A stretch of DNA of 12,914 bases from Candidatus Roizmanbacteria bacterium CG10_big_fil_rev_8_21_14_0_10_45_7 (GTDB taxonomy: Bacteria > Patescibacteriota > Microgenomatia > UBA1406). The notes below the pieces were generated by a model. The model saw only the letters and a program-made list of their open reading frames with translations. It was not told the DNA's origin and did no database searches. Every line of letters starts with the position of its first letter. The first letter of the stretch is position 1. Positions 884-9,937 of the stretch are shown one piece after another. A program made the translations under genes and the position numbers. The stretch covers positions 1,140 through 14,053 of the forward strand of contig PFEE01000032.1 in assembly GCA_002793745.1 (NCBI GenBank), given 5' to 3'.

Positions 884-893
884 AAAGCACAAT

Positions 894-898
894 GGAGG
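894..898 (+). promoter_or_regulatory. Shine-Dalgarno GGAGG deciding the nuclease start
   Basis: A perfect GGAGG lies 8 bases before the ATG at 907. It overlaps an in-frame ATG at 892, which therefore cannot use it. This favours 907 as the true start. Confidence 0.75.
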
Positions 899-906
899 AT
901 TTACTG

Positions 907-1368
907 ATGACACTTGCAACCCTGCTGCTAGTGGTAGGCGGTTTCTGGGGCAACGGCAACCCGCAAACAACCCGTGCCACGCGTATTATTGACGGAGATA
1001 CCATAGTTATTGAAGGGAAACAGCATGTACGCTATATCGGGGTGGATACGCCAGAAATTACGCATAATACAAAAGGAATATCCGAATGTTATGGAGAAGA
1101 GGCAACAGCCTACAATAAAAAACTGATACAAAATAAGGAACTTATAGTAAGCAAAGACGCGTCATGGAAAGACCGCTACGGAAGATTGTTGCGGTATGTG
1201 TATGTTAAACAAGACGGCAAACGGATACTGGTCAATGAAGAACTGATACGGCAAGGGTATGGAAGCGTATTGTTTATTGCTCCGGATATTCATAAGGCTC
1301 CCCAGCTGGTTTTGGCACAACTGGACGCCATGGTCCATAAGCGCGGCATGTGGAAAGCGTGTCCCTAG
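907..1368 (+). CDS. Thermonuclease (staphylococcal nuclease-like), secreted or membrane-anchored
   Basis: This 153-residue SNase-fold phosphodiesterase is expected to cleave DNA and RNA using Ca2+. Every catalytic position of the staphylococcal enzyme is present: IDGDT (28-32; D31 matches D21), R42 (R35), VDTPE (46-50; D47, T48 and E50 match D40, T41 and E43) and DRYGR (89-93; R93 matches R87). The downstream NEELIRQGYG segment is also typical. A short hydrophobic N-terminus (2-13) followed by a Gly/Asn-rich linker suggests export or anchoring outside the membrane. A reduced-genome cell could use it to obtain nucleotides from environmental nucleic acid, but that role is inferred. The start at 907 is chosen over 892 on Shine-Dalgarno spacing. 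The stop lies 29 bases before the tRNA gene on the same strand. Confidence 0.92.
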   Translation: MTLATLLLVVGGFWGNGNPQTTRATRIIDGDTIVIEGKQHVRYIGVDTPEITHNTKGISECYGEEATAYNKKLIQNKELIVSKDASWKDRYGRLLRYVYVKQDGKRILVNEELIRQGYGSVLFIAPDIHKAPQLVLAQLDAMVHKRGMWKACP

Positions 1369-1397: not shown

Positions 1398-1470
1398 GCT
1401 CGTGTAGCTCAGTTGGTAGAGCGTTCCGTTCACATCGGAGAGGTCCCTGGTTCGAGCCCAGGCACGAGCA
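1398..1470 (+). tRNA. tRNA-Val (anticodon CAC)
   Basis: A full 73-base cloverleaf folds by hand. The acceptor stem is 1398-1404 with 1463-1469, all seven pairs Watson-Crick. The D stem is GCTC/GAGC with an 8-base loop. The anticodon stem is 1424-1428 with 1436-1440 (first pair T-G), with loop TTCACAT and anticodon CAC at 1431-1433. The variable loop is AGGTC. The T stem is CCTGG/CCAGG with loop TTCGAGC, and the discriminator is A1470. CAC reads the valine codon GUG. CCA is not encoded (the next bases are CAT), so it must be added after transcription. The 3' half, from 1435 on, is repeated at 2720-2758, marking this gene as a likely integration site. Confidence 0.95.
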
Positions 1471-1473
1471 CAT
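1435..1473 (+). repeat. Left 39-bp direct repeat (tRNA 3' half, attL-like)
   Basis: These bases run from the anticodon-stem 3' strand through the T arm, acceptor strand, discriminator and three flanking bases. They match 2720-2758 at 37 of 39 positions; the differences are 1452 T to C and 1457 C to T. The repeat unit is 1285 bp. Repeats built from a tRNA 3' end are the typical attachment sites of tyrosine-recombinase elements. Confidence 0.9.
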
Positions 1474-1482
1474 TGTCATCTC

Positions 1483-2220
1483 ATGAAATTTGATTTACCT
1501 GGAACCTATGATTTTCAAGAGCATTCTTGGTTCTCTCCCCATTTAGTAATTAAGGCGATGAGACAATTAGCTCATATCTATCGGAGCAATGTTGAATCCA
1601 AACGAGAATTTCAACTGGCTAGAGAAATGTTTAATAGTGCAATTGCATTATTAGGTGCATACGAGTTACATCACGATAATAGATACTACCTTCAACCCAA
1701 TTTACAGAATGCTTCTCCAGATATTGTGGCGGTTAAGTTTACAGAATCTGTCGAAGGCGTGGTGCTAGAAGTTAGTCAGCTAGAATTAGTAGAAATGAAC
1801 GATTATTCATCAACAAATGATGTAGTTAATTTTCTGTTAAAAACTAAGTTATCCTCTAGAAAAAGCTATGATAGTAAAACGATAATTCTTTGTGTAGTTA
1901 ATAAAGAAATACCGGTAAATAGCTTGGAGATTTCAATGGAACTTAAAAAGATTAGATCTGCATCTACAATCTATATTGTAGGAAAAGCGCAGGGTAATAA
2001 TAGCGATTGGGTTATTTTTTCTCCTTACCCAGACTTAATAAAACCTGTAATTTATAATATTACCAAGACTATGGAGAAGTATGACTTACCAAGTCCTATG
2101 ATGTTGCGAAGAAAAATAATAAAGAAAATTCTGTATGTGAATGCGTCTCCGAAGCCGACTTCAATTTATGACATTTTTAATCTTAAAGAAGAACGGTTGA
2201 AGAAATACTTAAGAACTTGA
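1483..2220 (+). CDS. Hypothetical protein, possibly a degenerate PD-(D/E)XK-like fold
   Basis: I do not recognise this 245-residue protein. It appears soluble, with no signal peptide or membrane segment. The N-terminal third (about 18-62) looks helical and includes E42. Next comes QNASPDIVAV (75-84), then GVVLEVSQLE (92-101), then a hydrophobic strand TIILCVVN (133-140), a second strand STIYIVGKA (161-169), and a basic C-terminus (209-217 and 235-245). A PD followed by a strand carrying E-V-S recalls the beta-hairpin core of PD-(D/E)XK nucleases, but the usual lysine is replaced by S98, so catalysis is doubtful. The fold assignment is only a guess. The ATG is 12 bases after the tRNA with no Shine-Dalgarno, so the mRNA may be released by tRNA 3' processing and be nearly leaderless. 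The next in-frame ATG is residue 26. It is AT-rich relative to the flanking chromosome. Confidence 0.75.
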   Translation: MKFDLPGTYDFQEHSWFSPHLVIKAMRQLAHIYRSNVESKREFQLAREMFNSAIALLGAYELHHDNRYYLQPNLQNASPDIVAVKFTESVEGVVLEVSQLELVEMNDYSSTNDVVNFLLKTKLSSRKSYDSKTIILCVVNKEIPVNSLEISMELKKIRSASTIYIVGKAQGNNSDWVIFSPYPDLIKPVIYNITKTMEKYDLPSPMMLRRKIIKKILYVNASPKPTSIYDIFNLKEERLKKYLRT

Positions 2221-2225
2221 ATTAG

Positions 2226-2300
2226 TTATTTCGTGCAGATGGTGCTGCCGACGTTCCTGAATTCTTTGTTTGAATCCGCTTGCGACCCTTTACTTATTGT
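2226..2300 (-). pseudogene. Relic of a phosphodiester glycosidase C-terminus
   Basis: Read on the minus strand, this gives an open stretch of 24 codons ending in TAA, with another TAA immediately upstream (2301-2303). Its last 13 residues, KEFRNVGSTICTK, align with the C-terminus of the intact glycosidase, SEFTNVGSIVCVL, with 7 identities, and both are followed directly by a stop. At DNA level 2247-2267 matches 2778-2798 at 19 of 21 bases. The relic is tail to tail with the 245-residue gene, with stops 5 bases apart. It looks like what remains of a second glycosidase copy, mostly deleted or replaced. The match is short, so chance is unlikely but not excluded. Confidence 0.6.
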
Positions 2301-2307
2301 TTAAAAT
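2280..2307 (+). promoter_or_regulatory. Candidate promoter of the 125-residue membrane protein gene
   Basis: TTGCGA (2280-2285) and TAAAAT (2302-2307) are 16 bases apart and match consensus at 4/6 and 5/6. AGGA at 2321-2324 lies 8 bases before the ATG at 2333. The -35 falls within the glycosidase relic. The region is AT-rich, so a chance match is possible. Confidence 0.35.
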
Positions 2308-2332
2308 TGGATGAAGATGTAGGATTTAGTGA

Positions 2333-2710
2333 ATGAAATCCAACAAAGCTAACTATATAGTAAGGGGAGTTTTAATCGGGGTATCTCTGGCTATTTTACA
2401 ACAGATTTATATGTGGCAATACGCATTGCCAGAGACTAATATTGGATTCGTGCTACGAATTATTACCATACCCCTTACTATTATTCTATTTTTTTCTAAT
2501 CTAATTTGGATTGTTAGTAGTGTGGCACTTTTTAGTATAGTGGATTATTCTAGTAATTTTTTTGTTATTCCCGAACCAGGTAGCATTAATAAATTTATTC
2601 CAGAATTAACTTTTGCGGGGCATCTTGCTGTTTTTAGTGCAAGCTTGGTTATTCATATAGTGTTAGGTGGATTTGTAGGAATGATTGGGACAAGGCTGAA
2701 GCAAAAGTAA
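2333..2710 (+). CDS. Hypothetical small integral membrane protein
   Basis: I do not recognise this 125-residue protein. It is very hydrophobic, with probable membrane spans at about 9-27, 38-70 (long enough for one or two) and 95-118, giving three or four in total. A polar loop with FVIPEPGSINKF (77-88) separates the last two. The ends are basic (MKSNK and RLKQK), which would place the N-terminus inside. An AGGA Shine-Dalgarno 8 bases upstream supports the start. Its stop is 9 bases before the decayed tRNA copy. It is as AT-rich as the 245-residue gene and sits in the same cassette. Possible roles include partner of that protein, holin-like or immunity protein, but nothing in the sequence picks one. 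Confidence 0.72.
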   Translation: MKSNKANYIVRGVLIGVSLAILQQIYMWQYALPETNIGFVLRIITIPLTIILFFSNLIWIVSSVALFSIVDYSSNFFVIPEPGSINKFIPELTFAGHLAVFSASLVIHIVLGGFVGMIGTRLKQK

Positions 2711-2719
2711 TAACCGCAG

Positions 2720-2758
2720 TCGGAGAGGTCCCTGGTCCGAGTCCAGGCACGAGCACAT
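2720..2758 (+). repeat. Right 39-bp direct repeat (tRNA-Val 3' fragment, attR-like)
   Basis: This copy of the tRNA 3' half lacks any 5' half, so it is not a tRNA gene. It differs from the intact gene only at tRNA positions 55 (T to C, removing the invariant TPsiC uridine) and 60 (C to T), both in the T loop; the T stem CCTGG/CCAGG is intact. Such changes suggest this copy is free of selection. It ends one base before the stop codon of the convergent glycosidase gene. Confidence 0.9.
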
Positions 2759-2759
2759 G

Positions 2760-3551
2760 TTATAGTACGCATACGATACTGCCGACGTTGGTGAATTCTG
2801 AGAGGTGTTCATCGGGAGTGATTATGCCTGATGCACTTCCGCCATCAAGATTAAGAGCAGACTCAAATGATAAGTTTTCTGTATCTCCAATGGCAGTTAA
2901 TAACTGCGGCAACTGCGCCAGCAGTGGCCCTTCCAGTTGTGATGTGGGAAAGAAGATGGTTATAAACACTACAGCTCCATCGGTGGTATGCGCAATCAGC
3001 GATCGGCGGGCATATTTATCATCGGTAATGGTTAAGTTTCGGGCCACGCCTTGTTCAATAAGTAGCGGGCCGTTTTGCAATGCTTCTGCTACACCTGAAG
3101 AGGGGATACTGCGTGCAATGGCTGCCGTGCCGTCATTGAGTAAATACCAAAAGCCATCGAGCAACGTACTTACAGAGTTAGCCTCACGTTCTTCTTTTGA
3201 ATCATGAGTAAGTAGGCCCAGTGGAGCGCCGTCTGAAGTATAAAATCCGCCGTTTATAGCGGCCGTGCAGTGGTGTTCTTGAGCAAGACGCTTCATAGTT
3301 GCCTGCTTGGGATTGCTGATTACCGTTGTGTTGGGTATATTGTGCGGCGCAACTATATAATAGATATAGCGATATTGTTTTCCGTTAAAGGCAATGATGT
3401 GCTGTTTTGATTCTTCCGGGGTTATTGCTAACGAATCATCATTCTTTACGGTATCGGGTTTGGAAACTGGTGGCACTTTAGGGAGACGGTATATATACCA
3501 GGCACCGAGTGCGATTGTTGTTATGATTAACCCCGAAATAATATATTTCAT
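2760..3551 (-). CDS. Membrane-anchored phosphodiester glycosidase (NAGPA-like domain)
   Basis: This 263-residue protein has one N-terminal membrane span (3-21), a Pro/Asp-rich linker (23-46) and a NAGPA/DUF2233 phosphodiester glycosidase domain. Family landmarks are AINGGFY (98-104), QNGPLLI (159-165), ARRSLIA (181-187) and LNLDGGSAS (233-241). Family members release sugars linked through a phosphodiester, such as GlcNAc-1-phosphate caps; bacterial members are often linked to envelope glycans. Here it would act outside the membrane, and its place at the end of a cell-wall cluster fits that, though the substrate is unknown. GGAG (complement of 3558-3561) lies 6 bases before the ATG. The gene starts at the base right after the rodA stop, so the two are probably co-transcribed. 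A relic of a similar C-terminus lies at 2226-2300. Confidence 0.88.
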   Translation of the reverse strand: MKYIISGLIITTIALGAWYIYRLPKVPPVSKPDTVKNDDSLAITPEESKQHIIAFNGKQYRYIYYIVAPHNIPNTTVISNPKQATMKRLAQEHHCTAAINGGFYTSDGAPLGLLTHDSKEEREANSVSTLLDGFWYLLNDGTAAIARSIPSSGVAEALQNGPLLIEQGVARNLTITDDKYARRSLIAHTTDGAVVFITIFFPTSQLEGPLLAQLPQLLTAIGDTENLSFESALNLDGGSASGIITPDEHLSEFTNVGSIVCVL

Positions 3552-8665: not shown

Positions 8666-9937
8666 TTATTTTGAACCCGGAATAAAATTTTTAAAGAAAG
8701 AAACCACTTGTGAAAATTGCTCTTTAACGGCGCCGCCTGAAAAAATTTTAGGCAGCTCGGGCATGGTAAACGATCCACCCTGTTTGCTGCTCATATCTTT
8801 GCTGAACAGCATGGCACCAACCAGTGCGGCATATTCCGGCTGAGTTAGTTCGTCAGCGACACCGCCCAGCAATTTGGGCGTCCCGGTACGAACGGGAAGC
8901 GAGAAACGATCAGCCATGCGTTCACGCAAATAGGGCGTTGACATACCGCCGCCGGTAAGGATAATGCCTGCCGGCATTTTACCGATTAGTTCATTTTGTC
9001 GAATTTCGCGCTCTAAAAAGTCAAGCAGCTCGTCAAGACGGGGATATATGATGCCTTCCACTAACTCTTTTTTACTGATGTTCTGCATTTTTTCGGTTAA
9101 ATGAAGCGAAGCAATGGAGATCTCATCCTCGGTATCCTCAGGATGTTTGTCTTTGTACTGGTACAGGTAGCGTTTTACTTTTTCGGAGGATTCAAGCGAA
9201 ATGCGAAGCCCGGCAGAGATGTCGTTGGTAACATTGCGTGCGCCCAAGGGAATCACACCGGTATATACGACAGCGTTGTCGCAGTATACACATATATCGG
9301 TCGTACCCGCTCCGATATCAAGCAGCATGCAGCCTATTTCTTTTTCGGTTTCGCTTAACATCGCGTATGACGCGGCCAGCCCTGAAAATACAAACCCTTC
9401 AATATCAATGCCCAGCATGCTGCATACCTTGCGGATATTGTTGAGGGATATCGTGCTGGCCGTAACAATATGGGTATTCACCTCAAGCCGTACGCCGTTC
9501 ATGCCAATGGGGTTTTTGATTTCACCTTGGCCGTCAACAATAAATTCTTTGGGCAGTACATGAATAATTTCTCGGGTAGTTGCGAGCGATACTGCGCGGG
9601 CTGATTCAATGACACGTTCAATATCCTCTTCCTGTATATCGTTGGTTTGATAGTTAACTGCAACGACGCCATGGGAATTAAGGGATTGAATATTGGGCCC
9701 TCCGACTACGACAATCGCACGGTTAATGCGGTTTCCTGCCATCCGCTCAGCCTGGGTAATGGATTCCTCCAGTGACTTGCTGGCTTCGTTAATGTCGATG
9801 ATCTGGGATTTTTTAATGCCTTTGCTGGGTACGGCCGAAAAACCGATAATGCGCGGCGACCCTGTTTCCTTATCAATAGCAGCGACGGCAGTGCCTATTT
9901 TGTCTGATCCTATATCGATTATTGCTATTTGGTCCAT
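8666..9937 (-). CDS. ftsA: Cell division protein FtsA
   Basis: FtsA is the actin-like protein that tethers FtsZ filaments to the membrane. The 423 residues show phosphate-1 DIGSDK (8-13), an inserted 1C-type domain (about 83-165), phosphate-2 LLDIGAGTTDI (205-215) and the nucleotide-binding LTGGGM (327-332). The last 20 residues, around EQFSQVVSFFKNFIP, form an amphipathic helix, the usual membrane-targeting sequence. With the intact FtsZ tail encoded by the next gene, the FtsA-FtsZ contact is probably conserved. It starts 5 bases after the ftsQ stop, with no clear Shine-Dalgarno. Confidence 0.96.
   Translation of the reverse strand: MDQIAIIDIGSDKIGTAVAAIDKETGSPRIIGFSAVPSKGIKKSQIIDINEASKSLEESITQAERMAGNRINRAIVVVGGPNIQSLNSHGVVAVNYQTNDIQEEDIERVIESARAVSLATTREIIHVLPKEFIVDGQGEIKNPIGMNGVRLEVNTHIVTASTISLNNIRKVCSMLGIDIEGFVFSGLAASYAMLSETEKEIGCMLLDIGAGTTDICVYCDNAVVYTGVIPLGARNVTNDISAGLRISLESSEKVKRYLYQYKDKHPEDTEDEISIASLHLTEKMQNISKKELVEGIIYPRLDELLDFLEREIRQNELIGKMPAGIILTGGGMSTPYLRERMADRFSLPVRTGTPKLLGGVADELTQPEYAALVGAMLFSKDMSSKQGGSFTMPELPKIFSGGAVKEQFSQVVSFFKNFIPGSK

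Follow-up and report, generated by a model that had tools for sequence, protein, structure and literature searches.

Downstream of an intact tRNA-Val gene in Candidatus Roizmanbacteria bacterium CG10_big_fil_rev_8_21_14_0_10_45_7 lies a short segment that ends in a second copy of the tRNA 3' half. Taken as a whole, the arrangement is best explained as a small element without an integrase that integrated at tRNA-Val, a mini-island resembling the cis-mobilizable elements (CIMEs), and we regard this explanation as probable. The segment was studied within a window of 12,914 nucleotides, the whole stretch of DNA analysed, and the genome to which it belongs (G000) is 80% complete. We propose that an element with a tRNA-Val 3' half in its attachment site, presumably as a circular intermediate, would have recombined with the host tRNA-Val(CAC), the crossover lying inside the anticodon loop. 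A new functional 3' half, now the proximal copy, would have come from the element, and the host's own 3' half would have been pushed 1285 bp downstream, where it forms the distal copy. The minimal content now found between the copies would comprise ORF1 as cargo of nuclease-like character, what is probably a scrap of a glycosidase gene, and ORF2, with no recombinase. The geometry points to a tyrosine integrase as the responsible enzyme, which would be either absent from G000 or unassembled. If this explanation is right, it gives base-level knowledge of the ends of an element in a Patescibacteria-type genome, together with an allele signature that tells an imported tRNA half from a displaced one.

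The Repeat at tRNA-Val(CAC)

The intact tRNA-Val(CAC) gene occupies positions 1398..1471 on the plus strand (ARAGORN; Rfam 1398-1470, 66.6 bits). Its 3' end takes part in a direct repeat, with an attL-like proximal copy inside and at the end of the intact gene (1435..1473, plus strand) and an attR-like distal copy at 2720..2758 on the same strand. An earlier sequence-only reading of the window had described a 39-bp direct repeat here, and both its identity (37/39) and its spacing (1285 bp) were reproduced; the BLAST self-match of the pair has an E value of 4e-12. The block comprises the last 37 nt of tRNA-Val, from nucleotide 38 in the anticodon loop, immediately after the anticodon, together with the two bases that follow the tRNA. 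Outside the block, the in-register similarity of the two copies is no better than chance. The intact tRNA and the displaced 3' fragment have the same orientation, and the geometry of the repeat is that of anticodon-class integration at a tRNA gene. The same reading had proposed a search for further copies in the rest of the genome; across 83 order genomes, with a cut-off of E 1e-7, no match other than the window copy was listed as confined to the 3' half of tRNA-Val. No viral contig with the repeat was found, and the phage matches listed for window positions 1400-2800 are restricted to the part of the query with the tRNA end.

Composition and Gene Content of the Segment

The segment had also been described as low in GC, as indeed it is: the GC content of positions 1474-2719 is 0.34, against 0.44 in the left flank and 0.47 in the right. 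The same holds for third codon positions, with GC3 values of 0.29 and 0.27 in the two ORFs of the segment, as opposed to 0.42-0.55 in ten other genes of the window. To the left lies a gene for a staphylococcal-nuclease-like protein (892..1368, plus strand; Pfam SNase, 2.5e-20) and to the right a phosphodiester glycosidase gene (2760..3551, minus strand; Pfam NAGPA, 1.3e-15), both of which are conserved in G001, the one other genome of the genus compared.

Neither ORF1 nor ORF2 has an above-cut-off family match in Pfam, PHROGs, PADLOC or NCBIfam. These searches bear out the claim that the segment encodes no recombinase, in that neither ORF contains a recombinase domain. Families of integration and transfer genes are likewise absent from both ORFs, and no serine integrase gene overlapping a tRNA in antisense is found between the repeats. 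The description of the pair as orphan genes, however, holds for ORF2 but not for ORF1, which belongs to a conserved family with 45 database entries including its own. Both ORFs are also present in the protein database on a contig of 32,398 bp (the contig of the window measures 14,053 bp). ORF2 (2333..2710, plus strand) encodes 125 aa, and a protein search returned the protein itself as the sole match; its hydrophobic stretches, as judged from hydropathy, are membrane-like, and its product may be a membrane protein.

Five bases past the ORF1 stop lies, on the minus strand, a probable vestige of a glycosidase gene tail (2226..2265), for which the support is moderate. It reads EFRNVGSTICTK and then a stop, similar to EFTNVGSIVCVL, with which the flanking glycosidase ends. 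When the target was the final 60 nt of the glycosidase gene, picked after the match had been seen, none of 500 shuffles was as good; against the whole gene, 2 of 200 were. The vestige peptide shows 8 identities (stop counted), compared with at most 7 in 60 shuffles. It takes part in a second, weaker repeat of the segment, between 2235-2265 and 2769-2799 (25/31), which resembles the tail of a phosphodiester glycosidase gene. If the vestige is real, the cassette would formerly have had a different glycosidase gene as its neighbour, which would place it at the corresponding site in close relatives.

A glycosidase tail beside ORF1 would suggest a donor with ORF1 next to its own glycosidase gene, as expected if no integrase had taken part. 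In that case a linear piece of the locus from a sister species, carrying the tRNA-Val 3' half, ORF1 and the glycosidase tail, would have entered by homologous recombination at the shared tRNA and been joined elsewhere on the right by illegitimate recombination. We consider this route unlikely: the boundary on the right coincides exactly with tRNA nucleotide 38, a position within the anticodon loop that site-specific recombination predicts, and ORF2 lies past the tail, without a known source.

The ORF1 Family

ORF1 (1483..2220, plus strand) encodes 245 aa, and its start lies 11 nt past the tRNA end (window 1471-1483), so close that the tRNA promoter may drive its transcription. The protein has 44 relatives besides itself in the protein database and none in the phage, plasmid and viral collections searched. 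Its distribution is patchy (9/373 genomes of the class), and in four of nine other genomes its homologs are located 1.8-9.1 kb from a serine-integrase gene that overlaps a tRNA; the probability of such proximity arising by chance is on the order of 1e-3, a rough, uncomputed estimate assuming about 3 integrases per Mb. If the explanation is right, these neighbourhoods link an unnamed conserved family of nuclease-like proteins to mobile elements at tRNA sites.

The nuclease-like character of ORF1 is itself weakly suggested by structure comparison, in which its best matches were the restriction endonucleases AspBHI, MspJI and PaqCI, albeit weak and mixed with unrelated folds. Its possible likeness to these enzymes lies in the weak structure match and in P79-D80 and E101. 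An alignment of 33 sequences (32 of the 45 database entries and the window sequence) shows all three residues to be invariant; position 99 is mostly Q or N, and an invariant lysine such as is usual in (D/E)xK was not seen there. The one sub-threshold Pfam match to note is DUF697, at 17.3 bits against a cut-off of 27.7. Elsewhere, in locus L031 of genome G067, a 37-nt direct repeat of non-tRNA sequence (290-326 and 3148-3184, 89% identical) brackets an ORF1 homolog downstream of a tRNA-Ser. A neighbour of that homolog seemed HEPN-like by eye; Pfam gave no match, and the impression was dropped.

The Same Locus in Relatives and the Origin of the tRNA Halves

The G001 genome, which contains the sequence JANLHK010000119.1 (Ca. 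Roizmanbacteria P6-15), shares with the window the gene order SNase, tRNA-Val, glycosidase, its flanks being 81% (left) and 79% (right) identical to those of the window. Between tRNA and glycosidase gene, G001 carries a different gene on the opposite strand, encoding 218 aa, in an insert with a GC content of 0.29. This protein has two database relatives besides itself, none in viral contigs, and domain searches assigned it to no family. The only two genomes known to have this locus in common thus carry different content in the slot. The comparison of the locus in relatives that the sequence-only reading had called for thus yielded different cargo, but neither a second repeat in G001 (132 of 200 shuffles score as high) nor an empty site in either of the two genomes; its suggestion of a reused cargo slot stands as far as the differing content goes, although from two genomes only. 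In the third genome of the family, G002, a glycosidase homolog lies in a 3.6-kb locus without a tRNA, and the glycosidase gene is present in 3 of the 83 genomes of the order.

The sister genome also bears on which tRNA half belongs to the host. The T-loop sequence TCCGAGT occurs in both the G001 tRNA and the distal fragment, whereas the functional tRNA of the window has TTCGAGC. Over the block, the distal fragment agrees with the G001 tRNA at 36 of 37 positions, the single mismatch lying in the acceptor stem and matching each genome's own 5' strand; the functional half differs from the G001 tRNA at 3 of 37. In nine other tRNA-Val genes of the order, with a CAC or TAC anticodon, the T-loop reads TTCGAGT, TTCAAGT or TTCGAAT. 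Since all nine carry T where the G001 tRNA-Val (L005:1501-1575) and window positions 2720-2758 carry C, T is probably the ancestral state; this T-loop position is nearly always U in tRNAs. Because it is the distal fragment, and not the functional half, that carries the derived base of the sister, the functional half looks imported with the insert, and the simplest reading makes the distal copy the displaced host end, an argument that draws on two positions and few sequences. The event would appear to be recent, as suggested by a dead fragment that has hardly changed though the flanks differ by a fifth.

These alleles also weigh on a reading in which nothing was integrated and the tRNA 3' end was duplicated in place, with later gene gain or divergence. 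That the locus can be read as two units, each consisting of a tRNA 3' half with a glycosidase tail behind it, fits such a duplication, but the functional tRNA would then have had to change at two sites of its T-loop, with the dead fragment retaining the sequence of the sister. With the foreign composition of both ORFs and the other content in G001 also against it, we deem duplication highly improbable. Site-specific integration at the tRNA 3' end, which the sequence-only reading had inferred, is by comparison well supported by the geometry, the foreign composition, the alleles and the different insert of the sister.

The Search for an Integrase

That reading had further proposed looking for a tyrosine recombinase in the rest of the genome. 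Three matches were indeed found in G000, but by eye they look like Xer types: one is Xer-like and the other two are apparent halves of a second protein. The halves, L051:2495-3252 and L052:6808-7281 (contigs C50 and C78), are contig-end fragments resembling one split Xer-type tyrosine recombinase, the split presumably reflecting an intein just before the SFAT motif, as judged by eye. In G016 and G034, open frames of 736 and 760 aa match only the first 135 positions of the tyrosine recombinase domain.

Neither 16 tyrosine-recombinase loci, a non-random set picked by hand from the matches in the 83 genomes of the order, nor 18 serine-integrase loci yielded an autonomous relative with this repeat geometry. 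The 16 tyrosine-recombinase loci contain no tRNA fragment running from anticodon to end; two of them (L184, L188) lie beside a tRNA-Leu. In L188 (G067), a tRNA-Ser copy appears by eye to be interrupted in the T-loop by an insertion of about 40 nt that itself has two hairpin-like parts; after it come an intact copy and another 3' half that carries this insertion too (8702-8824, 9096-9183 and 9338-9402). Displaced halves were sought in the serine-integrase loci with tiled, ungapped searches, compared with 50 control tiles per locus; 18 of 22 loci were testable, three had too little sequence and one had no tRNA found. Matches of 27 bp in L143 and L144 were rejected as displaced halves, as by eye they fall within different tRNA-Ser genes that look full-length. 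Some loci have short matches immediately beyond the tRNA, for example L131, L142, L129 and L139, as well as L125 and L129 with E 0.2-0.4 in another comparison; these may be short att cores or chance.

These loci matter for the further possibility that one of the tRNA-directed serine-integrase islands of the class produced the insert or gave rise to it by deletion. The four ORF1 homologs near such integrases are consistent with it, as is the presence in G000 of two large serine recombinases, one of them overlapping a tRNA-Val(CAC) on contig C76. Yet none of the 18 testable serine-integrase loci has a displaced tRNA half, nor do the joined stretches of G240 and G132, and a 25-base stretch from the 3' end of the C76 tRNA occurs only once in G000 even with up to 3 mismatches allowed, leaving this origin very unlikely. 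Since the block is of the class called A by Islander and the 18 serine-integrase loci show no such repeats, we favour a tyrosine integrase, one not seen in this 80%-complete genome.

Serine Integrases Overlapping tRNA Genes

The tRNA-Val(CAC) on C76 is a second and different one, overlapped by a 512-aa serine integrase that reaches the contig end (L056:7463-9032); the island of this integrase is not assembled. With this integrase as query, a match was found in 74 of 137 genomes of the class at E 1e-30. A large serine integrase gene is overlapped by an antisense tRNA at 30 of 33 loci, made up of 30 returned loci (query included; L089-L118) together with L048, L030 and L034, the last two found via ORF1. 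The three exceptions are L099 and L106, which have no tRNA, and L104, which has a sense tRNA close to its start and extends beyond its contig. Among 20 further, weaker matches chosen by hand down the list (L191-L210), 13 show the antisense overlap and none a sense tRNA at that end. Many tRNA species are targeted, and at the overlapping loci the antisense tRNA ends the integrase reading frame. No published report of such an overlap was found in the part of the literature covered on serine integrases, tRNA genes and mobile elements of Patescibacteria, the Candidate Phyla Radiation or Microgenomates.

A broader and rather doubtful proposal is that tRNA 3' ends are shared docking sites in these Patescibacteria-type genomes. 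They would serve both a widespread serine-integrase lineage, which inserts such that the integrase frame is completed by the antisense tRNA, and small, still-mobile cassettes without an integrase, the window element being one, that move related nuclease-like cargo between species and restore the host tRNA with their own 3' half.

Comparison with Known Systems

Streptococcal ICEs that use a serine integrase and reside in rumA have their att site in the 3' end of the integrase gene, such that the target alters the integrase C-terminus (PMC4701971, in part). As far as that part of the source goes, they parallel only the serine-integrase loci, their target being a protein gene, and are unrelated to the window element. 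The tRNA islands of serine integrases in the class share with it a tRNA site and, in some cases, a nearby gene of the ORF1 family; in contrast, they keep their integrase and have no displaced tRNA half.

Islander, which deals with tyrosine integrases, defines class A by a crossover in the anticodon loop (PMC4383910, in the sections available). The window element is alike in its intact tRNA and displaced 3' fragment of the same orientation, with a crossover in the anticodon loop, but differs in having no integrase ORF inside or overlapping it and in its spacing of 1285 bp, as opposed to 2-200 kb. By the filters described in those sections, Islander would reject the element because it has no integrase and is shorter than 2 kb.

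The closest likeness is to the CIMEs, described in the available portion of the source as retaining att-like repeats while lacking integration and transfer genes (PMC5704250). The window element keeps attL and attR as the 39-bp repeats, one of them in the intact tRNA, and by that description it is similar in lacking such genes and in its position at a tRNA 3' end. It differs in its size of 1.3 kb, with two genes, and in having no known parent ICE or IME. As for decay from an ICE or IME, the ORF1 family lies near integrases elsewhere and no parent element was found. We call the element CIME-like because its att sites are kept and its integration and transfer genes are absent; it may descend from a larger element. 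With att sites kept and the integrase absent, it appears to work like a cis-mobilizable element, of a kind already known, for which mobilization by a helper is putative.
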